Shown: positions 33,262-46,660 of the stretch, in pieces
Position numbering within the stretch: position 1 is the first letter of the stretch
How the letters are laid out: every line of letters starts with the position of its first letter
The notes under the pieces: generated by a model
Seen by the model: only the letters and a program-made list of their open reading frames with translations
Told to the model about the DNA's origin: nothing
Databases searched by the model: none
Assembly (NCBI GenBank): GCA_022841825.1
Contig: JALHQT010000001.1
Span: forward strand, 930,001-994,000
Direction: 5' to 3'
From: Anaerolineae bacterium
Lineage (GTDB): Bacteria; Chloroflexota; Anaerolineae; Aggregatilineales; Phototrophicaceae
DNA length: 64,000 nt
Position numbers and translations under genes: made by a program

Positions 33262-34488
33262 ATGACCGCTCGCCGTTACTACGATGACTCGTACACCGCG
33301 CGCTTCCGTGCCATGGTGACGGAAGCGCTCACAATCGAGGGCAAGCCCGCCGTCGTCCTGAACGAAACCTACTTTTATCCGACAGGCGGCGGGCAGCCCC
33401 ATGACGTGGGCACGATGACTGCGGGTGGTCGCACGGCTCAAGTCATCGACGTGCAGACGCGCGGTGACGACAATGCCGTGCTGCATATCCTGAGTGAGCC
33501 GCTGTTTGGCGAGGCGGTCGAATGCGAGATCGACTGGGCGCGCCGCTTCGACCTGATGCAGCAGCATACCGGGCAGCACATCCTCTCACAAGCATTCATC
33601 CGCACTTCAAACGCGGCGACCAACGGATTCCACCTCGGTACCGAGGAAGTAACGATTGATCTGGATAAGCCGGGCTTGGACGCCGATGCCCTGCGAAGCG
33701 TCGAAACGCTCGCCAATGACATTGTGTTTGCAAACAGAACGGTCACCACTCGTCTGATCTCGCGCGAGGATGCGGAAGGTATCCGCATGAGGCGCGTCCC
33801 CGATGCGCTGGCGACCGACGGACTGCGCATCGTCGAGATCTCCGATTTCGATACGACTGCCTGCGGCGGGACCCACGTCGCGCGCACGGGCGAAATCGGC
33901 ATGATCAAAATCCTGACGACCGAAAATTACAAGGGCGGAACGCGCGTCAGCTTCGTCTGCGGCGAACGCGCGCTCCGCGCCGCTCAGATGCGAACCTCCC
34001 TGCTGAATACCCTGGCGGCGGACCTAAGCTGCGCGATCACCGACCTCCCCAACATCGTCGCCAGGCTGCGCGATCAATCCGCCAGCGCGGAAAAGAGCGT
34101 CAAAGGGCTGCGTGCGCGACTGGTCGAGTACGAGGGCGCGGCTCTCATCAAGACTTCCGAGGTACATGAAGGGGTGCGGTGGATCATCCATGTCGAAGAA
34201 GACGGCGATCCTTCCGCGCTTCGGCTTCTGGCAGCGCGCATCGTTCGGGAGCCAGGCAACGTGGCGGTGCTAGGTACGGCGGGCGACAAGACCCAGGTCA
34301 TCTGTGCCCGCAGCAGCGATGTCAGCACAGATATGAACATACTGCTTAAAACGGCGCTCACGCCCCTCGGCGGAAAAGGGGGCGGACAGCCTTCGCAGGC
34401 GCAGGGCGGAGCAGGGGCTGCGAGTCATGAACAGGTATTGGCAGCGCTGCGCGCGGCAGTCGCGTCGATCACTACCCGTAGCGAATGA
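33262..34488 (+). CDS. Alanyl-tRNA editing protein, AlaX long form with DHHA1 domain
   Basis: This 408-residue protein resembles the editing half of alanyl-tRNA synthetase. It has YFYPTGGGQPHDVGTM at the N-terminus and the zinc/editing motifs DLMQQHTGQHILSQAF (HxxxH) and TTACGGTHVARTGEIG (CxxxH). A C-terminal DHHA1-like domain ends in the glycine-rich GGKGGGQPSQAQGGA. It would hydrolyse mischarged Ser- or Gly-tRNA(Ala) in trans. It lies 6 nt after the isomerase-like gene, an unexpected neighbour for a sugar operon. Its last 17 nt overlap the end of the convergent TIR gene. Confidence 0.92.
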   Translation: MTARRYYDDSYTARFRAMVTEALTIEGKPAVVLNETYFYPTGGGQPHDVGTMTAGGRTAQVIDVQTRGDDNAVLHILSEPLFGEAVECEIDWARRFDLMQQHTGQHILSQAFIRTSNAATNGFHLGTEEVTIDLDKPGLDADALRSVETLANDIVFANRTVTTRLISREDAEGIRMRRVPDALATDGLRIVEISDFDTTACGGTHVARTGEIGMIKILTTENYKGGTRVSFVCGERALRAAQMRTSLLNTLAADLSCAITDLPNIVARLRDQSASAEKSVKGLRARLVEYEGAALIKTSEVHEGVRWIIHVEEDGDPSALRLLAARIVREPGNVAVLGTAGDKTQVICARSSDVSTDMNILLKTALTPLGGKGGGQPSQAQGGAGAASHEQVLAALRAAVASITTRSE

Positions 34489-35713
34489 TGCGGAAGCCGC
34501 GAGAGCGGCTGCGACGCCCCGGACGATCCAACTCCTCGCGATAGGTCGTCGTCAGTTTGTACTCCTCGCCCGGTGCTCGCTTGCCTGACCCACCGCGCAT
34601 CATGCGCGGCACATCCGCGTCCAGCGTATTGACCTCGCTGCTAAGAGCCGCTGAAGGAAGTCCGCACTTTAGCCCCGTTCGAGTCCATTCCCAGACATTG
34701 CCGCACATATCCATCACGCCGAACGGGCTGCTGCCTACCGGGTACTGATCGACCGCGCTAGGCGCATAATCGGTCTCGCTCTGCGGCGCGATCTCGATAT
34801 AGTTGCAGCGCTTCTGCTCAAAGTAGATGCCCCAGGGGTATGCGCGTCCGTCGCTGCCCTGCGCTGACCACTGCCATTCCGCCTCCGTCGGCAGCCGAAC
34901 ATCCTCGCCGCTCGTCGCGCTCAACCAGCGGCAGAACGCCACCGCGTCGTACCATGCCACATTCGTGCGCGGCAGGTTCACGCCATGATAGGCGGGTGAT
35001 TGAGGTTTCGCCCCCTCTCCCAGTCGCCATTCCTGCGCCCTGCGCGAAAAATCCCACCAACGCGCATCGTCGTAGCCGTCGCTCCGCTCGATGAACACCT
35101 CGAACTGCTCAACAGTGATCGGATACTTGCTGATAGCGAATGGTGTGACGGCGCGAACGCCGCCCGCAGGACCGTTGCAGGGAAAGTCCGTGAGCGATTT
35201 ACCCTGCAAATCGACCAATTCCACCTCGCCCGCTGAGACTTCGACCCACTCGAATGGCGTTCCCAGAATATTCTTGACGATGTCCGCGCTTTGCGCCTCG
35301 ACCTGACGTAAGCCCGCGACGAACTTACCCAGCGCACGCAGCCCGATCCCCTGTGTAAAGTCAACAAACTGCCGCTCGCGAAACACACCAGGCAGTTCAG
35401 GATCATGTTCAAGCAGCACAGGCAGCACAGGCTTCCCGTGCGCCAAGGCGATCTGAAGCTCTTTGGAGCAGTATTCCGATGCACGCCAGCGCGGAGAGCC
35501 AAAACAGAGGATGGCGTTCGAGGCGCGAATCGCCTGTGCGATCTCGCTCTCCCAGTTCTGGGCACCCTTGAGCGCCGCCGAATCAATCCAGATGTCATAC
35601 CCGCAGTCGCTGAGAAAACCGATCAGCTTATTGACGATCTTGACATCGGCATGTGGGAAGATTGCCCGTCTGGGGTCGCGATCATGCCGCGAATAGCTGA
35701 TAAAGAGCTTCAT
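34472..35713 (-). CDS. TIR domain fused to an FGE/SUMF1-like domain
   Basis: The protein has 413 residues. Residues 1-135 form a TIR domain: KLFISYSRHD box 1, then WIDSAALKGAQNWESEI, then RASEYCSKELQIAL with the candidate catalytic Glu85 of NAD-cleaving TIRs. Residues about 155-413 form a formylglycine-generating-enzyme-like fold: NVAWYDAVAFCRWLS, RLPTEAEWQWSA, YPWG, PFGVMDMCGNVWEW, MRGGS and the final SRGFRIIR. The two catalytic cysteines of true FGE after the RGGS motif are absent, so this half probably binds a ligand or partner. Its ATG overlaps the histidine kinase stop by 4 nt, making it the last gene of the Kai-like operon. An NADase or signalling effector role is inferred. Confidence 0.88.
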   Translation of the reverse strand: MKLFISYSRHDRDPRRAIFPHADVKIVNKLIGFLSDCGYDIWIDSAALKGAQNWESEIAQAIRASNAILCFGSPRWRASEYCSKELQIALAHGKPVLPVLLEHDPELPGVFRERQFVDFTQGIGLRALGKFVAGLRQVEAQSADIVKNILGTPFEWVEVSAGEVELVDLQGKSLTDFPCNGPAGGVRAVTPFAISKYPITVEQFEVFIERSDGYDDARWWDFSRRAQEWRLGEGAKPQSPAYHGVNLPRTNVAWYDAVAFCRWLSATSGEDVRLPTEAEWQWSAQGSDGRAYPWGIYFEQKRCNYIEIAPQSETDYAPSAVDQYPVGSSPFGVMDMCGNVWEWTRTGLKCGLPSAALSSEVNTLDADVPRMMRGGSGKRAPGEEYKLTTTYREELDRPGRRSRSRGFRIIRYG

Positions 35714-37146
35714 GGATGAACCTGCTCCCGTGCCATGACCAGCGGCAGCTTGACCACAAACGTGCTGCCATTCCCCAGGCTGCTTTCCAGGGCAATGCTG
35801 CCGCCGTGTGCGTGCACTGCTTGCCGTGCAATACTCAACCCCAAGCCTGTACCAGGGATCACCTCGGCATTTCGACCGCGATGAAATGGTTCAAACAAAC
35901 GAAATTGATCTTCCGGTGGGATGCCAATGCCCTGATCGCGTATCTCGATCTGGACGAACTGACGAGCCACAGACAGATGAATATCGACTTCGCTCCCAGG
36001 AGATGAATACTTGATAGCATTGCTGATCAGGTTGGTTAGTGCCTGACGCAGCAGCCTGCGATCCACCGATGCCTGTACCATCGCCGTTGGGCAGTTGAAA
36101 TTGATTCGATGGGTCTTGTGATAGTTGAGCTGAAATTCCTCGACAATGCTGCGCACGTAGGTCAGAAGGTCGATGAGTTCTGGCATAAATTCGTCCGCCA
36201 TACGTTCCGCCCGGCTGACGGTCATCACATCACTGACCAGGTCGGTCAGATGTTCGACTTGCGCGCGAATGCTGTCGAGGTACTGCGCGCGTTCCTCTGC
36301 GCTCGCCTTCTCCCCGTATTGATGCAGCATGTCATACGACAAGCGGATGAGCGCCAGCGGCGTGCGCAGTTCGTGCGACATCATCGTAAGAAAGCGGTCT
36401 TTCAGTTCGCGCAGCTCGCGCTCTTTATCCAGCGCGACCTTAATCCGTTCTTTCTCGATCTGCTCCGCGTCCAGCAGCTTACGCAGCGTGATATCGTGCT
36501 GTACGCCCACAATGTGGGTCAGTTCGTGGGCATCATCGTATATCGGCGAAAACCGCAGTTCAGACCAAAACAGCGCCCCGTCCTTGCGCTCGCATTCGAC
36601 AACCTCGACCGCGTCATGCCCATGTGTCAGGGCGTCATCAAGCCGCATATTCGCGTCCAGATGTGGGTTGCACTCGTACAGAAAGCGCGCACCGCGGTCG
36701 ATCACTTCCCATGCGGCATAGCCGGTCATCGCCTCGAACGCCGGGTTGACGTAGATCAGCGGTCTATCCGGATGCAGCGCGTCAATAATCATGATTCCCG
36801 AAGCACTGGCTTCTATCGCTTTGTTGCGCAGCAGAATCGCGGTTTGTGCGAGTTTTCGGTCGGTCACATCGCGCAGAGAAGCCAGGTAGCCGCGCGAGCC
36901 TTCCCATTCGATTTCGACCACCCGCATTTCCGCGCTGATGATTTGACCCTGGCGTAAAATGTCGATCTCGGTGGTTTCCCCGCTTCCTATCGGAAATCCA
37001 AAGAGGGTGCCGATAAGTTCGCTCGCGACCTTTCCGAACATCATCTCTGCCGCGGGATTGCAGAAACGTATCTTTCCACTGTGGTCGATGACGAGGATGC
37101 CATCAGCATTTCGGTGGATGATTGTGAGCAGCGTATCCGTTAACAT
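35710..37146 (-). CDS. PAS-PAS sensor histidine kinase
   Basis: This 478-residue soluble kinase has no membrane segment. PAS 1 covers about residues 5-95 (NADGILVIDHSGKIRFCNPAA) and PAS 2 about 108-225 (GIMIIDALHPDRPLIYVNPAF, ending in a PAC-like GVQHDITLRK). A coiled linker leads to the dimerisation domain with phospho-acceptor His258 in TMMSHELRTPLALIR. The ATPase domain has NLISNAIKYSSPG (N box), IRDQGIGIPPEDQFRLFEPF and GTGLGLSIARQAV. Its start is 9 nt after the kaiC-like stop and its end overlaps the TIR gene start, so it is the likely clock-output kinase, by position analogous to SasA. Unlike SasA it has no thioredoxin-like KaiB fold. No response regulator is in the operon. Confidence 0.93.
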   Translation of the reverse strand: MLTDTLLTIIHRNADGILVIDHSGKIRFCNPAAEMMFGKVASELIGTLFGFPIGSGETTEIDILRQGQIISAEMRVVEIEWEGSRGYLASLRDVTDRKLAQTAILLRNKAIEASASGIMIIDALHPDRPLIYVNPAFEAMTGYAAWEVIDRGARFLYECNPHLDANMRLDDALTHGHDAVEVVECERKDGALFWSELRFSPIYDDAHELTHIVGVQHDITLRKLLDAEQIEKERIKVALDKERELRELKDRFLTMMSHELRTPLALIRLSYDMLHQYGEKASAEERAQYLDSIRAQVEHLTDLVSDVMTVSRAERMADEFMPELIDLLTYVRSIVEEFQLNYHKTHRINFNCPTAMVQASVDRRLLRQALTNLISNAIKYSSPGSEVDIHLSVARQFVQIEIRDQGIGIPPEDQFRLFEPFHRGRNAEVIPGTGLGLSIARQAVHAHGGSIALESSLGNGSTFVVKLPLVMAREQVHP

Positions 37147-37155
37147 ACGATTCGA

Positions 37156-38667
37156 CTACGGTTGGTCGTCTCCATCAAAGAGATCGCGCATACGGTCGAT
37201 CTCACTCGGCTGAACATACATGAATGTACCGGACAAAATGCCGGTGACATCGCGGAATGGACGTCCAATGTGCATCCCACTCGAGTCGATACGAAACTCG
37301 CGGATGTCCTTATCATGCATAGAGCCGCGCATCTTCAGGACCGTCAATCCTCGCCGCATCTCTCCATAGATTTCGACATACCGCAGGAGGATGATTGAAT
37401 CGGTGATCGTCGAGATATGCGCTTCGGTTGTCGATGAGCCGCCCAGCAGATTCGGGGTCGTCGCGGTAAACAAACCCGCGACCTCCTTGTGCTTGATGAA
37501 GCTGGTCAAGCCAATCACAAACTCGCGAAACCCTTTGATGGTCGAGACACGCTCCAAGGCGGAGAGGCTGTCAATCGCTACCCGCTGCGGCTTGAATTCC
37601 TCGATAATCCGCTCCATCTCGATCAGGTGGTCTTCTAAGCCAGCAACCTCCGGGTAGACGCAGTGGACATACAGCTTGCCCTCGCGCTCCATCTTCTCGA
37701 AGTCGTATCCCCAACCGGTCGCATTGCGGAACAACTGGTCGCGGCTCTCTTCAAAAGCGAACAGCAGGCAGCGCTCGTTGTTCGCGTAGCCTCCCGAAAT
37801 GAACATGGTCGAGACCAGCGTCTTCCCTGTCCCTGTCGCGCCGGAGATCAGAATGACCGAGTCACGAAAGAAGCCACCGCCGCACATCTGATCGAGCAGA
37901 TCATTCCCGCTGGTAATGCGCACGCTGGACGAACGCTGTTTGAGTTCGAGCGCAGACAGAGGGATGACGACAATGCCCCTGCCTGGGATGACCGTGAGCG
38001 GAAATTCGCCTTTGCGATGCATCGCGCCGCGAAATTTCAGGATTTCGACGGTGCGGCGACGCTTTTCGCCCTCCAGTACGTTGCGGAGAATCACCACGTT
38101 GTCCGCGACAAATTCTTCAATGCCGTAGCGTGCTACCGGACCATACTCGTCCGACCGCTCCGCCGTCATGACCGCCGTGACTCGCAGCCGCTTGAGTGCC
38201 GACGCGATCCGAAACAGCTCATTGCGAATGGTCGTGGTATCGGGGAACATTGTGAAGACCGCGCCGAGCGAGTCCAGCGACACACGTACCGCCCGAATAT
38301 CACCGACAGCATGTCGAATGCGCGCGATCAACGCATCGAGATCGTATTCGCCGCTGAACACCGCTTCTTCCGACCCGCGCGAAGCATCGACAAAACGCCA
38401 CTTGCCCACAGTCTCCCACTGAGCGATATCCCAACCGAAGCCAAGCATATTTGCGCGGATGTCTTCGACGTTTTCCTCAAACGTGACGAACACCCCCGTC
38501 TCGCCATGCTTCAGGATGCCTTCAGCCAGAAACTGGCAGGCAAAGACCGTTTTTGCCGTCCCTGCGGTCCCACTAATGAGCGTAGTCCGCCCGAACGGCA
38601 GCCCGCCCTGGGCAACGTGGTCAAAACCGGCAATCCCAGTCGATAACTTCTGCAACTCAACTACCAT
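37156..38667 (-). CDS. kaiC: KaiC-like circadian clock ATPase/autokinase
   Basis: The ATG at 38667 follows GAGGA and gives 503 residues, close to cyanobacterial KaiC (519), with two RecA-type domains. CI has Walker A GTAGTAKT (33-40) and the catalytic Glu pair in VTFEEN (64-65). CII has Walker A GATGTGKT (276-283) and FAFEES (306-307). The CII phosphorylation segment TTEAHISTITD keeps the Ser-Thr acceptor pair (Ser419, Thr420) and the Thr five residues before the Ser (Thr414), as in Synechococcus S431/T432/T426. RYVEIYGEMRRGLTVLKMRGS is nearly identical to KaiC. The C-terminal PSEIDRMRDLF resembles the A-loop/KaiA-binding tail. kaiB lies 36 nt upstream and a histidine kinase gene 9 nt downstream. 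Confidence 0.95.
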   Translation of the reverse strand: MVVELQKLSTGIAGFDHVAQGGLPFGRTTLISGTAGTAKTVFACQFLAEGILKHGETGVFVTFEENVEDIRANMLGFGWDIAQWETVGKWRFVDASRGSEEAVFSGEYDLDALIARIRHAVGDIRAVRVSLDSLGAVFTMFPDTTTIRNELFRIASALKRLRVTAVMTAERSDEYGPVARYGIEEFVADNVVILRNVLEGEKRRRTVEILKFRGAMHRKGEFPLTVIPGRGIVVIPLSALELKQRSSSVRITSGNDLLDQMCGGGFFRDSVILISGATGTGKTLVSTMFISGGYANNERCLLFAFEESRDQLFRNATGWGYDFEKMEREGKLYVHCVYPEVAGLEDHLIEMERIIEEFKPQRVAIDSLSALERVSTIKGFREFVIGLTSFIKHKEVAGLFTATTPNLLGGSSTTEAHISTITDSIILLRYVEIYGEMRRGLTVLKMRGSMHDKDIREFRIDSSGMHIGRPFRDVTGILSGTFMYVQPSEIDRMRDLFDGDDQP

Positions 38668-38703
38668 TACATCCTCGCCCAAACAATAAATGAGGCAGGG
38701 TCG

Positions 38704-38994
38704 TTACAACACATCGCCACCTATCGAGATACTTAGCGCTTTCAAGACGGTTGCCTGGTCGGACAGATCGCCAATGATTCGGCGCTCCGGCTGCGGCTGC
38801 TCACGAACGAGCGTAGGCGTCGCCATGATTCGGGCGACCTCAGCGGCTTCCGGACGGCGCAGCACATCGACGATCTGGATCAGGCAGCGCCCAGCAAAGA
38901 ACGCCTCACCAATCTGGCGCAGGTTCTGAATGGCACGTTCCGACCGAGGATTCGCGCCCGCTACATATAAGGTCAATACGACCTGTTCATCCAT
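38704..38994 (-). CDS. kaiB: KaiB-like circadian clock protein
   Basis: This 96-residue protein is about the length of KaiB, with a strong match to its thioredoxin-like fold. VLTLYVAGANPRSERAIQNL is strand 1/helix 1, then LIQIVDVLRRPEAAE, MATPTLVRE (the cis-Pro loop) and RRIIGDLSD near the end. KaiB switches folds to bind the KaiC CI ring and sequester KaiA in cyanobacteria. It lies 21 nt after the PAS/KaiA-RsbU-like gene and 36 nt before kaiC, so the three are almost certainly co-transcribed. No good Shine-Dalgarno site is seen before the ATG at 38994. Confidence 0.95.
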   Translation of the reverse strand: MDEQVVLTLYVAGANPRSERAIQNLRQIGEAFFAGRCLIQIVDVLRRPEAAEVARIMATPTLVREQPQPERRIIGDLSDQATVLKALSISIGGDVL

Positions 38995-39015: not shown

Positions 39016-39879
39016 CTAAATTCCACGTTGCTCTAAGTCCGCCAATATCATATCGCGGTAATACGCAGCAAGGTAGCCCATGATCTCTATCAGAAGCAGG
39101 CGTCCTTCTTCCAGATACACCTGCATACGAGCTGCCGAGTACTGTTTGGCGCGAACGGACTCCATCGCCCGGGTATGCAGCCCAATCACATCACGCGGAC
39201 CCGCTGTCTGCGTGCCCAGTCCCTTTGCCAGCACCCTCGCCTGAGACTGCAAATCGTTGGTTCCCTTGAACAAGCGGCGCTCGAAGGCTTTTTCCAGCAG
39301 CAACTGGTACTGGCTGTCCAGGTCCGAAGGAACCAGCTCTCGCTCGGTATCCGCCATTCGAGTGTCCGTGCTTTGTATGGCGGCAAACTCACGCGCCTGC
39401 TGGCGGGAAGCCACAGCACGGCGCTGCCGCCGTGCGCGCGCGCGTGCCGCAAGATGCTGCGTCGTAATGTCGATGTGGGAGATAACCAACCCTCGCTCGC
39501 TTTCGCTGCGCAGCGGAGTCACACGCATGAGGTACCAGCGCTCTTCCGTCGGCGAATGGCAGGGGTAGCGCTGCTCAAAAACGCTGCTGCCGTCGGCGAG
39601 CACTCGACGCATTCCGGCAACAGCCTTCTCTGCCAGAGTATCACCGTTCAACGCCGAGCGTTCCGTCACTTCGAGATAGTTGATGCCAACCCCCGTGTAC
39701 CTGAGGTCGGGGTCACCGTTCTCACGCGCGAAGCGATCCCATGCCTCGTTGACGACGAGGATGAACCCCGCCGGATTGACGACCGCGATGCGCGTTTGGA
39801 TCGAGTTCAGGATAGCTCGGCTGAGTGAGTCGTCGCTAGCCCGCTGACCCGACAGTGATGTGGACACATGTCCGTTCAC
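39016..39879 (-). CDS. PAS protein with C-terminal KaiA/RsbU-type four-helix domain
   Basis: This 287-residue protein starts at a GTG (39879) with AAGGGG 6 nt upstream. Residues about 19-140 form a PAS domain (ILNSIQTRIAVVNPAGFILV, then EERWYLMRVTPL and GLVISHIDITTQ). An Arg/Ala-rich linker follows (about 141-187, RARARRQRRAVASRQQ). Residues about 188-280 are helical and match the RsbU N-terminal pattern: QYQLLLEKAF, LAKGLGTQTAGPRDVIGLH, EEGRLLLIEIMGYLAAYYRDM. That fold belongs to the KaiA/RsbU structural superfamily. It is the first gene of the kaiB-kaiC operon. A KaiA-like regulator of the KaiC-like protein is therefore a reasonable hypothesis, with PAS replacing the KaiA pseudo-receiver. 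No RsbU phosphatase domain is present. Confidence 0.82.
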   Translation of the reverse strand: MNGHVSTSLSGQRASDDSLSRAILNSIQTRIAVVNPAGFILVVNEAWDRFARENGDPDLRYTGVGINYLEVTERSALNGDTLAEKAVAGMRRVLADGSSVFEQRYPCHSPTEERWYLMRVTPLRSESERGLVISHIDITTQHLAARARARRQRRAVASRQQAREFAAIQSTDTRMADTERELVPSDLDSQYQLLLEKAFERRLFKGTNDLQSQARVLAKGLGTQTAGPRDVIGLHTRAMESVRAKQYSAARMQVYLEEGRLLLIEIMGYLAAYYRDMILADLEQRGI

Positions 39880-39928: not shown

Positions 39929-40900
39929 TCACTGTGACCACTGCGTCGGCTTGCGGTCCCATCGGTGCAGTTTAAGCTTTGCCAGCAGATCAGCGGGTAG
40001 CGCGCGTCCATCGCCGGCAGCAATGTTGGCTTCCACATGATGCAGTTTGCGCATTCCGGGAATGATCGTACTGACAGTCGGATGCGCCAGGATGAAGCGA
40101 AGCGCCAGTTCGGGCATCGTCATCTCGTCTGGAATGAGCGGACGCAGCGCTTCGGCACGGTCCACCGAGGCGTGAAGGTTTTCGGGCACGAAATAGCTGT
40201 TGCGCCAATCGCCTTCAGGAAACTTCGTCTCTTTGGTCAGTGTGCCAGTCAGCGTCCCTTCGTCGAAAGGCACCCGCGCGATAATGGCGACCTTGAGCGC
40301 GTCCGCCAGCGGGAAGAGATGATCTTCCGGGTTCTGATCAAAGATGTTATAGATGACCTGTACCGCATCAATCATGCCAGTCTTGAGCGTCTCAAGGCAG
40401 TTGTCCGGTTCCCATCGATTGACGCTCACACCCCACGCCTGAACTTTGCCCGCATGCTTCAAATCCTCGCAGGTACGCTGCCAGCGGTCGTCCGAAGCCC
40501 AGTCGTCTTCCCAGACATGGAACTGCATCAAGTCGAGCGAATCAGTGCGCAGGTTTCGCAGGCTGGTATCGACCATTTCGCGAATGTAATCTGACGGAAA
40601 TACATCATCCAGCGCCGCGCCACGTCGCGAGGGCCATTTGCGGTTCTTGGGCGGGATTTTCGTCGCCACATAGAGCTTCGTCCCGGGATTCTGACTGAGA
40701 AGCTGTCCCAACAAACGTTCGCTGTGCCCTTCCCCATAAGCAAACGCGGTATCGAAGAAGTTACAGCCGAGCTCGACCGATTTTTGCAGAGAGGTCATCG
40801 ACTCAGCATCTTCAGATCCTGTCCACCCCCCCATTCCCCACATACCATACCCCATCTCCGCGACCTGCCAGCCTGTGCGCCCGAATGTGCGATACCGCAT
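39929..40900 (-). CDS. Aldo/keto reductase
   Basis: The ATG at 40900 follows GGAGAGGG and starts the standard MRYRTFGRTGWQVAEMGYGMW; an in-frame start at 41014 is not needed. The 323-residue TIM barrel has FFDTAFAYGEGHSERLLG with the catalytic Asp and Tyr, KLYVATKIPPKNRKW with the catalytic Lys, and LDLMQFHVWEDDW with the fourth tetrad residue His. NADPH binding is suggested by STIIPGMRKLHHVEANI. It would reduce an aldehyde or ketone; the substrate is unknown. It lies 49 nt upstream of the Kai-like operon on the same strand, so read-through into that operon is possible. Confidence 0.92.
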   Translation of the reverse strand: MRYRTFGRTGWQVAEMGYGMWGMGGWTGSEDAESMTSLQKSVELGCNFFDTAFAYGEGHSERLLGQLLSQNPGTKLYVATKIPPKNRKWPSRRGAALDDVFPSDYIREMVDTSLRNLRTDSLDLMQFHVWEDDWASDDRWQRTCEDLKHAGKVQAWGVSVNRWEPDNCLETLKTGMIDAVQVIYNIFDQNPEDHLFPLADALKVAIIARVPFDEGTLTGTLTKETKFPEGDWRNSYFVPENLHASVDRAEALRPLIPDEMTMPELALRFILAHPTVSTIIPGMRKLHHVEANIAAGDGRALPADLLAKLKLHRWDRKPTQWSQ

Positions 40901-41061
40901 GATTCCCTCTCCAACGCCTGCATGATCAACCTGCGGCAAGTATAGCGCAATCCTTGGCATCAGATGCCTCCACAACTGAACCCTTAACGCCCCCCATCTT
41001 GACCGGTTCGCCATTTCGGCATACGATACCTAGAGAATAGAGGTATGACCACGAGGCGACT

Positions 41062-42021
41062 ATGCAGCGTTTGTTCAGCGTCCAACACCATCACCCACAC
41101 ACGCATCCCAAGATTGACCAGCTCATGACCGCTGTGCGTGCGGGGGTGGTCATCACGGAAGAAAAGCTGCTGCTGCTCGTCGCGGCATTGATTGCAGGGG
41201 GTCATGTCCTGATGGAAGACGTACCAGGCGTGGGCAAGACACTGGTTGCAAAAGCACTCGCTCATGCCATCGGCGGCAGCTTCAAGCGCGTGCAGTGTAC
41301 GCCCGACCTGCTTCCATCTGATGTGACGGGCGGCGCGATCTACAACCAGCGCGAAGGCGTATTCGAATTTGTGCCCGGTCCGTTGTTTGCCAACGTCGTG
41401 CTCGTGGATGAGATCAACCGCGCTAGCCCGCGCACCCAGAGCAGCCTGCTGGAATGCATGGCAGAAGCACAGGTGACAACAGATGGCGTCACCCGCACCC
41501 TGGAAAAGCCATTCTTTCTGATCGCGACCCAGAATCCGGTCGAAATGGCGGGGACTTATCCGCTGCCAGAGGCACAGCTTGATCGATTCCTGATCGCCCT
41601 CAGTCTCGGGTATCCGTCGTTTGAAGACGAGTTGGACATCCTCGAGCGCGAAGAACGCGGCGACTCGCTCGACGATGTCCCGGCTGCCGTCAGACCAGAG
41701 GACATCCGCGATTTACAGCGTGCCGCACTTCAGGTGGATGTTGTGCGCAGCCTCAAGGAGTATATCGTGCGCGTCGTCCAGGAAACCCGCGCGCACCCGG
41801 ACGCGCTGTTGGGCGTCAGCCCGCGCGGGGGCACCTCGCTTCAGCGCTGTGCCCAGGCGCTGGCGCTCATCGCCGGGCGCAGCTTCGTGACGCCCGACGA
41901 CATCAAGCGTGCCGCCCAGGCATGCCTGCCACATCGCCTGCTCGCGCATGACCGCCAGCCGGAGACAGGTGCGCAAATCGTGGATGACGTGCTGAAAAAG
42001 ACCCGGGTCCCGCTCGATTGA
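41062..42021 (+). CDS. MoxR-family AAA+ ATPase
   Basis: The protein has 319 residues. The Walker A is EDVPGVGKTLVAKALAHA, Walker B is VVLVDEINRASPRTQSSLLE, the sensor 1 region is FFLIATQNPVEMAGTYPLPEAQLDRFL, and sensor 2 is in SPRGGTSLQRCAQALA. MoxR ATPases act as chaperones that activate or assemble extracytoplasmic complexes. The ATG has GAGGCG upstream. It heads the conserved MoxR-DUF58-transglutaminase trio, 15 nt before the DUF58 gene, and is probably their ATP-driven maturation factor. Confidence 0.95.
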   Translation: MQRLFSVQHHHPHTHPKIDQLMTAVRAGVVITEEKLLLLVAALIAGGHVLMEDVPGVGKTLVAKALAHAIGGSFKRVQCTPDLLPSDVTGGAIYNQREGVFEFVPGPLFANVVLVDEINRASPRTQSSLLECMAEAQVTTDGVTRTLEKPFFLIATQNPVEMAGTYPLPEAQLDRFLIALSLGYPSFEDELDILEREERGDSLDDVPAAVRPEDIRDLQRAALQVDVVRSLKEYIVRVVQETRAHPDALLGVSPRGGTSLQRCAQALALIAGRSFVTPDDIKRAAQACLPHRLLAHDRQPETGAQIVDDVLKKTRVPLD

Positions 42022-42036
42022 GCGAAGCTGGCAACC

Positions 42037-43320
42037 ATGAAACCAACGACCAAGCCAACCGCGCGCGCAGGCACCCTGCTCGTCGCAGCACTCGTGCTCT
42101 ACTTCTTTGCAAATCAGACGCAGGTCGGTTGGCTGTACGTCATGGCAGCAGTCATGGGAGGCTGCGTCCTGGCAGCCGCCTGGCTCAACCGCGCCATGCT
42201 GCGCTCCGTCATGGCGAGCAGAAGCATTCGCCTCACCACCCCAGCCGCATTTCCTGGTGCGAAAGGCGCGACGGCGCGCATTGCCGATGCCATACACGAA
42301 GGGGACAGGGTTGAAGTCATGCTTCGGCTGCGCGCTGGCAAGTCTACCGCACAGGTCACGCTCACCGAGGTATGCCCACTCACAAGTGATGCGCAACTGC
42401 GAACGCAGGCACTCTACATTCCAATGTTGTCACGCAGCGCCATCATTGAGCATAGTTACGATGTCGATGTGACTCAGCGCGGCATCCACCGATTCGATCC
42501 GCTCAAGGCAACATCGCACGCACCCTTCGGGATATTCGCGCGGCAGGGCACCATCACCGCAGACGCCGCACTGCTCGTGTATCCGGAAGTTCGCCCGCTG
42601 CGCAGGCTGGAATTGCTGGATCGCCGCCAAACGCTCCAGCAGCTGCGCGCACGCGCCGGGCACGGCAGCGAGATCATCGGTACCCGCCCCTACCGCCCAG
42701 GCGACTCGCCGCGCCACATCCATTGGCGGAGTTCCGCGCGGCAGCAGAGCCTCATCAGCAAGGAATTTGCGGACGATGCGCAGCCCGCGCTGCTTCTCAC
42801 ACTCGATTGTTTCGCACATCCCTACCCCACGGCGACCGCGTTTGAGACCAGCGTCAAAATCGCAACAGCAGTAGGTGAATACGCACTGCGCAGCGGCTAT
42901 CGTGTGGAGCTTTTGGCGAACGAGCATACCGACCCCAAAGCAGCCCACATGCCGCACGAGGAAACCTGGCACACACTGCTGGAGCGACTTGCCCGTGTGC
43001 TGCCACGCGGCACACAACACCTCGCCGATCTGCTGCAAAAACCGTCGCAGGCGCAGGTTGCCGCCGTTCTGCCGTATCCCGACCTCACCTGCGCTGCGCA
43101 TCTGAGCAGGCTGCGCGCCGCTGGCATCCAGGTATTGGCAATCGTCGTCAGTGACGCACAAGACGAAGACTGTGCGGCAGTTGCCGCCCGCCTGCGAAGC
43201 GCGGGCGTGGACACACGGATCGTTCAACCGGGTGACGACTGGGAGAACACCCTCGCCGCATCGGCAGCCTATCCAACAGCCTCCAAAGCGAACACCCGGG
43301 CAGAGATCGCAGCCCCATGA
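42037..43320 (+). CDS. DUF58 domain protein (MoxR partner)
   Basis: This 427-residue protein has two membrane segments at the N-terminus (TLLVAALVLYFFANQT and LYVMAAVMGGCVLAAAWL), then a beta-rich region. The DUF58 signature appears as GTRPYRPGDSPRHIHWRSSAR near residue 216, followed by a von Willebrand A-like segment (PALLLTLDCFAHPYPTATAFETS). DUF58 proteins occur with MoxR and transglutaminase-like proteins and are thought to serve cell-surface assembly. Its stop overlaps the next start (ATGA, 43317-43320), indicating coupled translation. Confidence 0.92.
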   Translation: MKPTTKPTARAGTLLVAALVLYFFANQTQVGWLYVMAAVMGGCVLAAAWLNRAMLRSVMASRSIRLTTPAAFPGAKGATARIADAIHEGDRVEVMLRLRAGKSTAQVTLTEVCPLTSDAQLRTQALYIPMLSRSAIIEHSYDVDVTQRGIHRFDPLKATSHAPFGIFARQGTITADAALLVYPEVRPLRRLELLDRRQTLQQLRARAGHGSEIIGTRPYRPGDSPRHIHWRSSARQQSLISKEFADDAQPALLLTLDCFAHPYPTATAFETSVKIATAVGEYALRSGYRVELLANEHTDPKAAHMPHEETWHTLLERLARVLPRGTQHLADLLQKPSQAQVAAVLPYPDLTCAAHLSRLRAAGIQVLAIVVSDAQDEDCAAVAARLRSAGVDTRIVQPGDDWENTLAASAAYPTASKANTRAEIAAP

Positions 43321-45539
43321 AACGACTCTCGACGCTGATCCTCCAGTTATTTCTCTACGGAACGGGGCTTCTTCTCACCCTTGTGTCACTGGGGCTGCGC
43401 ACCTGGACACTCGCTTCATTCGCCCTGCTGGCATTCCTGATGGGGTATCAGTATGGGCGGGCGCGGGCTAGTGCCGCCGCCCCGGAAGATTCTCGGCAGC
43501 TCCGACTGATGGCATATGGCGCGCAGGTGGTCGGCATGGCGGCGTTGGCATGGACGACGCAGCTCTGGTGGCTGTTCATCCCCGCCACCGTCCTCCTCTA
43601 CGGTGGACATCAGATTGCATATCGCACGCGCGCTCGAACCTCGTGGTGGGTGCGCATCGCGGGCTTCATCCTGCTGCACCTCGTCTTTGCCTGGATGTTC
43701 TTCGGCATGTTCAACGGGCAGCCGTACCCACAGGCACAGGCGGCGATATTGGCAACCGTCGCGGTCAGCGCCGCGCTGCGCACCCGCATGAATCTATTCA
43801 GTGGCATCGGCTTGGGCATGGCAAACCTGTATGTTGCCGCGACGCTGGCACGCGACATGAGCTTTCTGGTCTTTCTGGCAGTGTTCGTCGTGCTGCTGCT
43901 CGCCTTCCTTTGGCGCGCGGATGACGAGGACGGACTAAAAGCGAACCTCCGAGTGCTGCGTACGAGCGCTACAGCACGGCAGGCATCTGCCACCCGCTTC
44001 GTGCCCAATGCGCTGGTCGTGCGTGCATCGGCAGCACTGGTCACAATCACAGCGCTGCTGTTCGTCTTCACGCCACGTTTCGCTGGGCATCCCCTGGTGC
44101 CACCCTTCACGCTGCACGCCCCCATCCAGAGCGCGCCGACCGGGCAAATCATCAATCCTGCTGCACCGCTCGTCCGCCTCGCAGGCGCGGTCAACAGCAC
44201 AGGTGATTACTATCCCGGCTTCGACAGCGCGCTCGACCTCAGCTACCGGAGCGGTTTGAGCAGCGACATTATGATGTACGTCCGCAGCCCAGCCGCCAGC
44301 TACTGGCGCAGCCACGCCTATGACACCTATGACGGTCGAACCTGGATGCTGGCGGACGAAAGCGTCGAACGTATCCCGCTGGAGGGTCCGTTTTATGAGT
44401 TGGATCGCTTCTCATTCCGGCGCGATGATGTCTTCGCGCAAACCTACCAGATCGTCCGCCCGCTGCCCAACCTGATCTTCACGGCTGGCAGACCCGTCCA
44501 GTTGTACCTGGCAGCGACCGAGATCGCACGAGACAGCGCGGGCGGCATCCGCATTGGCGAGGCACTGACGCCGAATATGGTGTACTCCGTCATTTCCGCC
44601 GAAAATCGCCTTGACGCCGAGGTTCTGCGCGCCGCGGGTACGACCTATCCGACGGAAATACTCCAACGCTACACCCAGTTACCCGCGTCGGTGAGCGAAC
44701 GAACGCGCGTCCTCGCCGCAGAACTCGCGGACAACCTGCCGACTCCATATGATGTCGCCAAAGCCATCGAGTTACACCTGCGCAGCAATTACGCTTACAC
44801 GTACTTTCCGCCCCCACAGCCTCCCGGCAGCGATGCAGTCGATGTCTTTTTGTTTGAAGATCGGCGCGGCATGTGTGCACTTTATGCCTCGTCAATGGCA
44901 GTCATGCTGCGTACGCTTGGCATTCCCGCGCGTCTCGTCGCAGGATTTGGTACAGGTGACTTCAACCCCTTCACCAACCTCTACGAAGTACGCGCGGATG
45001 ACGCCCATGCCTGGGTGGAGGTGTACTTCCCGGAGCACGGTTGGGTGCCTTTCGAGCCTACGGCAGGCTGGAACGGCGATCCCCAGACGGGCGGCGTACA
45101 ACGTTGGGTGTTCACCGGCGCGTTTGGCACGGTCGATCTTGCGAGCATTCCGACCGAGCAGATCGCCAGCGCAGGCTTAAGCATCCTCGGCGCAGTAGCA
45201 CCTTGGCTGCCGCTCCTGGCGCTCGGCACACTGGCGTTTGTCCTGCTGCGCAGACGGCGACTGCCACGGCTGCATATGCTGAGGCGCATTTTGTCCTGGG
45301 GAGAGCGTCGCACGTCCATCGACCACCCTGGCCGCAAAGCGATCCTGACGCAGTATCGTCGCGCACAACGCAAGCTCAGGCTGCGACGCAATCCTGCCGA
45401 GACGACGCAGGAGCACGCCCGCAGGTCACCGGGGGTTGCCAACCTTGCCACACTTGTCGACATCGCTGCCTATCGCCCTGCCCCGCCCAATGCTGATGAG
45501 ATCCAGCAGGCGAGAGCCTGGAAGCGTGAGGGTCGATGA
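43317..45539 (+). CDS. Membrane transglutaminase-like protein (TgpA type)
   Basis: This 740-residue protein has about six or more membrane segments in the first 250 residues, an extracytoplasmic region, a transglutaminase-like core, then a last membrane segment (APWLPLLALGTLAFVLL) and a basic cytoplasmic tail. The catalytic triad is visible as DRRGMCALYASSMAVML (Cys), DDAHAWVEVYFPEHGW (His) and PFEPTAG (Asp-equivalent region). The family is found with MoxR and DUF58 genes and may be a protease or crosslinking enzyme of the envelope. The tail after residue 640 carries no further recognised domain. It is the last gene of the trio. Confidence 0.92.
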   Translation: MKRLSTLILQLFLYGTGLLLTLVSLGLRTWTLASFALLAFLMGYQYGRARASAAAPEDSRQLRLMAYGAQVVGMAALAWTTQLWWLFIPATVLLYGGHQIAYRTRARTSWWVRIAGFILLHLVFAWMFFGMFNGQPYPQAQAAILATVAVSAALRTRMNLFSGIGLGMANLYVAATLARDMSFLVFLAVFVVLLLAFLWRADDEDGLKANLRVLRTSATARQASATRFVPNALVVRASAALVTITALLFVFTPRFAGHPLVPPFTLHAPIQSAPTGQIINPAAPLVRLAGAVNSTGDYYPGFDSALDLSYRSGLSSDIMMYVRSPAASYWRSHAYDTYDGRTWMLADESVERIPLEGPFYELDRFSFRRDDVFAQTYQIVRPLPNLIFTAGRPVQLYLAATEIARDSAGGIRIGEALTPNMVYSVISAENRLDAEVLRAAGTTYPTEILQRYTQLPASVSERTRVLAAELADNLPTPYDVAKAIELHLRSNYAYTYFPPPQPPGSDAVDVFLFEDRRGMCALYASSMAVMLRTLGIPARLVAGFGTGDFNPFTNLYEVRADDAHAWVEVYFPEHGWVPFEPTAGWNGDPQTGGVQRWVFTGAFGTVDLASIPTEQIASAGLSILGAVAPWLPLLALGTLAFVLLRRRRLPRLHMLRRILSWGERRTSIDHPGRKAILTQYRRAQRKLRLRRNPAETTQEHARRSPGVANLATLVDIAAYRPAPPNADEIQQARAWKREGR

Positions 45540-45610: not shown

Positions 45611-46660
45611 ATGTCGGCAGCAGAACGAGACATGGAACGCTGGCAGGCAGTCATGCGGCGGGATGCAGCATATGATGGCAACTTCGTTACAGCCGTGAAG
45701 ACAACCGGGGTCTTTTGTCGTCCGTCATGCAGCGCCCGGACGCCACGCCACGAAAATGTGAACTTCTATGAGACATGCGAAGAAGCAGAGGCGGCAGGTT
45801 ACCGCCCCTGTAAGCGCTGCACACCCCATCTGGTCGCCGCCGAAATCGAAATGACCACCCGCCTCTGTGCCTTTATCGACCAGCATTTCGAAGAACGCCT
45901 GACGTTAGACGACCTTGGCGCGGTTGTCCATCTCAGTCCCGATTACGTGCAGCGTGTCTTCAAGCGCATTATCGGGGTCAGCCCGCGCCAGTACATCGAA
46001 GCGCGTCGTGTCGGGCAGCTCAAAGCGAGTCTTCGCAGCGGGGACGAGGTCACGACTGCGCTCTACGACGCGGGTTTCAGTTCGTCCAGCCGCCTGTATG
46101 AAGATGCTTCTAGCAAGCTCGGCATGACACCCGCGACCTATCGCAAAGGAGGACAAGGGATGCAGATTCGCTACGCGGTGCGCGAATGCCCGCTCGGTTA
46201 CCTGCTGGTTGGAATGACCACACGCGGAGTCTGCGAAGTCAGTCTTGGCGATTCAGCCGAGGCGGTTGAAGCATGGCTGATGCACGACTACCCCAATGCT
46301 CAGTTCAGCCGAACGGACGATGACCTGGCGCAGGCGATGGACATGCTCATTCATTATCTCCAGGGGGACTCGCGACAGTTGCAGCTTCCGCTCGACCTCC
46401 AGGCAACCGCCTTCCAACTGCGGGTCTGGGAAGCACTGCGAAACATCCCGTATGGAGAAACGCGCTCCTACCGCCAGATCGCGGAAACGCTGGGTGCGCC
46501 TTCCGCTTCTCGCGCGGTCGCGCGTGCCTGCGCAAGCAACCGGGTGGCACTGGTCATTCCATGCCATCGTGTTGTACGAGAAGGGGGCGCTCTGAGCGGC
46601 TACCGCTGGGGCATCGAACGCAAATCAGCACTGCTCGCCCAGGAACGCCGCAGCCTCTGA
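45611..46660 (+). CDS. ada: Ada-type methylated-DNA repair protein and transcriptional activator
   Basis: The protein has 349 residues and an excellent AAGGAGG site before the ATG. The N-terminal Ada zinc domain has the four Cys in FCRPSCSART and YRPCKRCTPH; the first is the methylphosphotriester acceptor. An AraC-type helix-turn-helix pair follows (LTLDDLGAVVHLSPDYVQRVFK, TTALYDAGFSSSSRLYEDAS). The C-terminal O6-methylguanine methyltransferase has the acceptor Cys in ALVIPCHRVVREGGALSGY. This is the full fused E. coli-like Ada order. It repairs alkylated DNA and would activate its own promoter after methylation. No alkB or alkA is adjacent. Confidence 0.96.
   Translation: MSAAERDMERWQAVMRRDAAYDGNFVTAVKTTGVFCRPSCSARTPRHENVNFYETCEEAEAAGYRPCKRCTPHLVAAEIEMTTRLCAFIDQHFEERLTLDDLGAVVHLSPDYVQRVFKRIIGVSPRQYIEARRVGQLKASLRSGDEVTTALYDAGFSSSSRLYEDASSKLGMTPATYRKGGQGMQIRYAVRECPLGYLLVGMTTRGVCEVSLGDSAEAVEAWLMHDYPNAQFSRTDDDLAQAMDMLIHYLQGDSRQLQLPLDLQATAFQLRVWEALRNIPYGETRSYRQIAETLGAPSASRAVARACASNRVALVIPCHRVVREGGALSGYRWGIERKSALLAQERRSL

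Follow-up and report, generated by a model that had tools for sequence, protein, structure and literature searches.

The window, i.e., the whole stretch of 64,000 nucleotides that was analyzed, contains a run of five close frames on the minus strand, which encode a PAS-KaiA protein, KaiB, KaiC, a histidine kinase and a TIR-FGE protein. The PAS-KaiA gene (39016..39879) is an open reading frame of 287 aa with a GTG start. Its kaiA-like product combines a PAS domain (PAS_4 of Pfam, residues 24-142, 39454..39810) with a KaiA/RsbU-type four-helix domain (residues ~171-283, 39031..39369), the latter located by family profiles, a structure model and hhalign. The next gene, kaiB (38704..38994, 96 aa), matches PF07689 with an E-value of 3.6e-23 (81.5 bits, cut-off 27) but does not reach the thresholds of the curated KaiB equivalogs. 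It is followed by kaiC (37156..38682, 508 aa, TTG start as listed), which passes the circadian KaiC model TIGR02655 with 625.6 bits (cut-off 546.25). The PAS-PAS histidine kinase gene downstream of kaiC (35710..37146) was identified by Pfam and curated models and may encode an output or input partner of the clock. The last frame (34472..35713) codes for a TIR + FGE-sulfatase-like protein, overlaps the kinase gene by 4 bases and has no relative among the 16 stretches compared; its product probably stands outside the clock.

With the listed starts, the gaps along the run are 21, 21 and 9 bases, followed by the 4-base overlap; these values are approximate because the start codons are the mechanical pick of the open reading frame listing. 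The original prediction placed the gene beside kaiB-kaiC, and this holds true: it lies directly upstream of the pair, at the position of a kaiA gene and on the same strand, and the arrangement is kept in relatives. A further frame on the same strand (39929-41014, an aldo-keto reductase by eye) stops 49 bases before the PAS-KaiA gene, which therefore need not be the first gene of its operon. The genome of the window has one KaiB match and one copy of the helical domain. On the plus strand, a MoxR - DUF58 - transglutaminase-like cluster (41062-45539) and an Ada-like methyltransferase frame (45611-46660) were recognized by eye.

Relationship of the C-terminal domain to KaiA and RsbU

Taken alone, the C-terminal part of the window protein matched no Pfam family and no sequence of the PDB. 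In the window genome, no match to KaiA (PF07688) was found over the Pfam cut-off and none to RsbU_N (PF08673) at E ≤ 0.001. For family profiles, we used a set of relatives from 61 genomes. The whole protein is matched in 24 of them, mostly through the PAS domain only; five genomes besides that of the window match over nearly the full length and two via the C-terminal part only. Profile A1 comprises eight C-terminal domains from this set, including that of the window, A2 comprises 31 members, A4 35 members from two phyla and A5 14 Pseudomonadota members with a receiver as front domain. According to the alignments A2 and A4, the helical domain is common to the window protein and the receiver-type members, and five residues of the window domain (R67, D68, R98, Y112 and R113) do not vary in either of them (31 and 35 rows).

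The profiles were searched against 177,635 distinct PDB sequences. Profile A1 placed KaiA at ranks 1-3 (E 0.0049-0.035), followed by an unrelated row (0.16) and RsbU (0.18-0.28), and A4 returned eight KaiA sequences as ranks 1-8 (E 0.0011-0.054) before the first unrelated row (0.11). With A2, the helical protein SHERP came first (E 0.0057), KaiA appeared at 0.052 and apolipoproteins from 0.074. The A5 search yielded two rows, one for a designed repeat protein (E 0.0003) and one for an apolipoprotein, and none for KaiA. SHERP, the apolipoproteins and the designed repeat protein were taken as noise of helical composition. The KaiA model of Pfam matched 5 of 35 family members at E up to 1, with a best value of 0.0037; among eight members compared with Pfam, KaiA was weakly matched by three and RsbU_N weakly by two. 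The sequence link to KaiA is thus near the detection limit, with modest E-values that depend on the membership of the profile. In a tree built from the helical domain alone (39 rows, 122 columns), most of the branching is unresolved.

The original prediction was based on an RsbU N-terminal pattern, the quoted motifs of which lie at residues 190-199, 225-235 and 257-274, as counted on the translation. An alignment of 21 RsbU_N domains (A3) was compared with the family alignments by hhalign. A2 gave a probability of 92.9 (E 3.7e-7 for that single comparison), A1 92.4 and A4 88.9. The paired columns include QY..LL with QY..LL, GPRDVIGLH with PPEEIVSVH and LIEIM with LIEVM (family and RsbU_N, respectively). 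In a separate run of A2 against RsbU_N the score was 39.4, the maximum in 300 column shuffles being 25.3, so that none of the shuffles scored as high; the reversed and HATPase controls of the same run reached 11.5 and 14.9. The kinship of the helical domain to RsbU_N is real according to these alignments and becomes visible only with relatives. As a whole, the predicted likeness to KaiA and RsbU_N was recovered with the family profiles A1 and A4 and with hhalign, but not in sequence searches with the window domain alone. RsbU carries a PP2C phosphatase. The window protein shares the three motifs with the RsbU N-terminal domain (PF08673), whereas it carries a PAS domain, and no PP2C phosphatase family was found in it at E up to 1.

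Residues 148-287 were modeled by AlphaFold2 from the window sequence only, without an alignment, which makes the model independent of the relatives. It has a pLDDT of 71.4 and a pTM of 0.57, with mean pLDDT values of 69-93 in blocks of ten residues from model residue 41 on. Four helices are predicted at residues 187-205, 210-223, 228-243 and 249-284 (40-58, 63-76, 81-96 and 102-137 in model numbering). The full-length model reached a pLDDT of 48.5 and was left out of the fold search. A Foldseek search against 350,542 PDB chains gave KaiA at all of the ranks 1-9, with probabilities of 0.98-1.00, E-values of 0.064-0.14 and TM values of 0.45-0.51; 13 of the first 16 rows are KaiA. In VIA-align, KaiA 4g86 was aligned over 98 residues with a Z-score of 10.0 at 2.8 Å, and five further KaiA entries reached 9.5-9.9, 5c5e 9.4 and 1q6a 7.9, all KaiA alignments covering 90-101 residues. 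Non-KaiA entries scored similarly, namely the stressosome domain 3zta (10.8), 3pmd (10.1) and a chorismate mutase (9.3); rows within one Z unit count as tied, and helical bundles can reach such values by a common arrangement. For this model, the Z-scores of KaiA (7.9-10.0) are therefore modest and tied with those of stressosome and other sensor domains. The 50 VIA-align rows shown do not include RsbU, an absence that excludes nothing. Foldseek, VIA-align and the A4 profile agree on the KaiA C-terminal four-helix fold, and the anticipated resemblance of a predicted structure to the KaiA C-domain is borne out.

Association with kaiB and the partner KaiC

We searched 400 genomes of the phylum for the helical domain and found 48 matches in 33 of them; two of these matches (both in G154) look like gene pieces. 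In the same 400 genomes, KaiB is over the cut-off in 41. For 32 of the 48 matches, one per genome, KaiB follows on the same strand at a distance of 52-357 bases, which applies to 32 of the 33 genomes; the 33rd, G133, has no KaiB over the cut-off. KaiB also occurs in nine genomes that lack the domain. The Fisher p for the co-occurrence is 6e-38, kinship ignored. In the family of the window, 9 of 98 genomes match the domain, that of the window included; the match in one of them, G010 (E 4e-4), is probably due to chance.

The domain is also found in Pseudomonadota, the phylum to which the Rhodoferax genome with locus L003 belongs, where 21 of 398 genomes gave 26 matches. All of the 20 loci examined there are receiver-type and 19 contain kaiB and kaiC. 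kaiB lies behind the gene in 16 loci and in front of it in three (L139-L141); the latter show the order kaiB - receiver-type kaiA - kaiC, and their helical domain is more distant. One locus (L131) shows neither kaiB nor kaiC. In the loci seen of the window's phylum, kaiB does not adjoin eleven copies of the domain, ten of them receiver-type and one PAS-PAS. Loci that show a receiver-type protein with the KaiA domain but no kaiB within the stretch seen are L046-L052, L054-L056 and L074 (3047-5111), all of family f32.

The KaiC of the window has two P-loops, two Glu-Glu pairs, the Ser424-Thr425 site and a short tail. All 12 complete KaiCs beside the domain, including that of the window, carry the Ser-Thr pair and end 37-51 residues after the reference column (the KaiC of L066 is truncated where its contig stops and does not enter the tail count). 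By contrast, ten KaiCs from kaiB loci that lack the domain, taken from ten genomes and chosen from 40 KaiB matches not adjoining the domain, have SS (7), AS (2) or AG (1) at this site and 95-110 residues after the reference column; L097 and L098, retained among the ten, have C-termini that look odd by eye, perhaps through frame errors. In the KaiC tree, 27 domain-linked and 10 domain-less rows are split by a 100/100 branch. The partner KaiCs examined belong to the KaiA-responsive class (KaiC1/KaiC3). Behind a long-tailed kaiC, L091 (3526-4672) has three kaiB-like frames in a row.

Front domains and neighboring genes

The pseudo-receiver of KaiA binds quinone. A PAS domain in its place had been predicted for the window protein and was found: PAS_4 reaches 35.1 bits at residues 24-142 (Pfam cut-off 23.1, E 1.6e-8), and no receiver or pseudo-receiver was met in front of the window domain. 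The PAS domain belongs to a subfamily with a YPCHSPxExRWF-like motif. Members of this subfamily (39454-39810, minus strand, in the window) also occur in other sensor proteins. Inspection by eye recognized neither LOV nor haem signatures in it. A conserved cysteine is present in 14 of 18 aligned KaiA-linked PAS rows (with the window present twice) and in 24 of 25 other PAS rows; that it might serve redox sensing by the PAS domain is a guess from the alignment. A scan of genome contigs with the whole protein gave four loci whose similarity is confined to the PAS domain; no frame in them is hit by the helical-domain profile. This profile gives no match in the genomes of L001 and L003 either.

To describe the variety of front domains, we compiled 37 distinct proteins of the phylum, including that of the window, seven from loci of the relatives set and 30 from the scan of 400 genomes; L005 repeats the window (L035) and was left out of the trees, the kinase count and the 37. 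Front types were called by profiles built from members and for 20 of the 37 by Pfam. Twenty-one proteins have a receiver, 15 a PAS or PAS-PAS front and one (L040:1456-2337) neither; its front appears weakly GAF-like by eye and has no Pfam match. The receiver of L044 (1471-2427) is degenerate and recalls the pseudo-receiver of cyanobacterial KaiA. kaiB adjoins 14 of the 15 PAS-type genes, 11 of the 21 receiver-type genes and the gene of L040. Within the genus of the window (15 genomes), a single PAS (window, G005), PAS-PAS (G014) and a receiver (G002, G006) are all represented. In the KaiC tree, at least three changes among the three front types are required, with 2-4 for PAS in bootstraps, and from these counts a single front swap and several swaps are not distinguishable.

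A histidine kinase gene lies upstream of 8 of the 11 receiver-type genes beside kaiB and of 11 of the 20 Pseudomonadota receiver-type genes; it was seen for none of the 15 PAS-type genes, the ten receiver-type genes away from kaiB or the GAF-like one, in a view that reaches at most ~1.5 kb upstream, shrinks to ~0.5 kb at many PAS-PAS loci and is absent at L007, so that kinases may be missed. Comparison of receiver-type genes beside kaiB (19 of 31, one of the 31 sitting at a contig end) with PAS-type genes (0 of 15) gave a Fisher p of 5e-5, kinship ignored. Longer stretches were examined for 15 loci. In L070, L071, L072, L075 and L076, the receiver-type gene is preceded by a kinase gene, with gaps of 11-445 bases; in L074 the kinase gene lies directly behind the receiver-type gene, the two genes overlapping, and L079 shows none. 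Of the seven PAS-type stretches, four (L069, L073, L077, L080) have an upstream gene that Pfam identifies as something other than a kinase; in the remaining three (L066-L068), the upstream gene runs on the opposite strand. At least one genome, G298, combines a PAS-PAS form beside kaiBC (L073) with a receiver form elsewhere (L074).

Behind kaiC, a kinase was found by Pfam or similarity in L067, L068, L070, L075 and L079, a PAS-PAS-GGDEF-EAL protein in L073 and L077, and an FAD oxidase in L072. The fronts of the two PAS-PAS-GGDEF-EAL proteins (L073:751-3297, L077:6364-8901) resemble that of the KaiA-type protein, with 30% identity over 280-325 aa. Judged from this domain make-up, c-di-GMP is a possible clock output. 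In five of the eight operons compared (L067, L068, L073, L075, L077), the kaiA-type gene has a sensor module in common with the gene that follows kaiC; the operons of the window, L070 and L079 lack such a shared module.

Predicted function and comparison with known Kai systems

With KaiA, the plain KaiBC timer becomes a self-sustained clock; the front domain of KaiA is among the places at which resetting signals enter. With the domain make-up, the conserved neighborhood and the association with KaiA-responsive KaiC established, we consider it likely that the window protein is a KaiA-type activator of the KaiB-KaiC of its host, belonging to the KaiA3 line and carrying a PAS domain at the position of the KaiA3 receiver. 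The receiver-type relatives resemble the published KaiA3 (PMC11372060), which makes the window protein a KaiA3-type protein with a different sensor and no lone analogue. Of the original designation as a KaiA analogue, the KaiA-like fold, the PAS domain and the adjacency to kaiBC therefore stand, but the notion of an isolated analogue does not.

In such an activator, the helical domain would dimerize and the dimer would bind the short tail of KaiC, keeping its A-loop out. Holding the A-loop out would increase KaiC autophosphorylation at Ser424/Thr425, and KaiB bound to phosphorylated KaiC would later capture the activator and thus close the cycle. A signal perceived by the PAS domain, at the position of the pseudo-receiver or receiver, could adjust the activator itself, with no need for a histidine kinase as a further protein. 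The PAS front suggests that a signal could act directly on the clock proteins, and a change of the predicted KaiA3-type activator's input from two-component to one-component is the best reading of the data.

The activator reading has to be weighed against other roles. A brake or output, in which the protein binds KaiC as a KaiC-reading adaptor or as a competitor of a receiver-type KaiA, would be in line with the presence of both forms in at least one genome (G298, the PAS-PAS form beside kaiBC), and also with the finding that in five of eight operons, though not in that of the window, the enzyme encoded after kaiC has the same sensor module. Nevertheless, the window genome has a single KaiB match and a single copy of the domain, so no second activator is seen there, and the gene order is that of kaiA3B3C3, whose first gene encodes the activator according to PMC11372060; we regard this role as unlikely. 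We find it rather unlikely, too, that the protein works as a partner-switch regulator of the RsbU kind, with a helical domain that contacts an RsbT-like kinase or some other protein instead of KaiC, and that it adjoins kaiBC for other reasons. Such a regulator could account for the profile-profile likeness to RsbU_N, the weak Pfam matches of two of eight members (compared with three of eight for KaiA) and the stressosome sensor domains among the structural neighbors, but not readily for a protein without a phosphatase domain, for KaiA at the top of one sequence profile search (A4) and of Foldseek, or for kaiB adjoining in 32 of 33 genomes with KaiCs of the KaiA-responsive class in those examined.

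The helical domain is short, and the window sequence is invisible to curated models; together with the eleven copies not adjoining kaiB in the loci seen, this would also fit a generic dimerizing output domain that lies near kaiBC without a role in the clock. Given the co-occurrence with KaiB in 32 of 33 domain genomes among 400, and with kaiB and kaiC at 19 of 20 Pseudomonadota loci, this explanation is very improbable.

Starting from the KaiA3-type activator, a wider and only tentative proposal is that Chloroflexota, and probably Chloroflexus too, run complete KaiABC oscillators, in which PAS-KaiA, as a one-component sensor, would detect a signal (chemical, redox or light) and directly set the phosphorylation of KaiC. 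The enzyme behind kaiC, a kinase or a c-di-GMP enzyme, would often carry the same sensor, so that one signal would reach input and output. If true, KaiABC-type clocks would become testable in cultivable anoxygenic phototrophs. The front of the KaiA-type protein (receiver, PAS, PAS-PAS) is exchangeable even within one genus; this illustrates a way in which the input of a clock can evolve, and it provides a natural chimera set for testing it. According to PMC11372060, Chloroflexus aggregans is a named exception to the kaiA3B3C3 synteny among non-cyanobacterial genomes. If G298 is C. aggregans, L073 and L074 would explain this exception, and its PAS-PAS-KaiA may close a gap in the published KaiA3 survey. 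The term PAS domain is absent from the main text of PMC11372060 and PAS from that of PMC8113500, and in the titles and abstract openings of the openly accessible literature searched, no description of a PAS-KaiA was found.

Among known systems, the cyanobacterial KaiA of Synechococcus, Thermosynechococcus and Nostoc (PF07688) provides the best PDB matches of the profiles A1 and A4 and of the model, and its gene likewise precedes kaiBC. It differs in its front, which is a pseudo-receiver or missing, and the window domain is below Pfam detection; the identity is 12-20% in seven VIA alignments and 8% in an eighth. Fronts of cyanobacterial KaiA include OmpR-like, REC, AtoC and PHA02030, and KaiA is also reported from two bacteria that are not cyanobacteria, according to PMC8113500. 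In the Rhodobacter KaiB-KaiC hourglass, kaiB and kaiC also occur together, but its KaiC has a long coiled-coil tail and functions without KaiA, as described in PMC10076222, whereas the window KaiC is without such a tail. The closest counterpart is KaiA3 (Sll0485) of Synechocystis, which the receiver-type members represent by architecture and synteny and not by its sequence. According to PMC11372060, KaiA3 consists of a receiver and a KaiA-like domain, its gene is the first in the order kaiA3B3C3, and it raises the phosphorylation of KaiC3 in vitro, the sites being Ser423 and Thr424. The window protein shares with it the KaiA-like C-terminal helical domain behind a regulatory front domain, the position of the gene upstream of kaiB and kaiC and a KaiC with a Ser-Thr site; in contrast to KaiA3, it has a PAS domain instead of the receiver and no histidine kinase gene is seen upstream.
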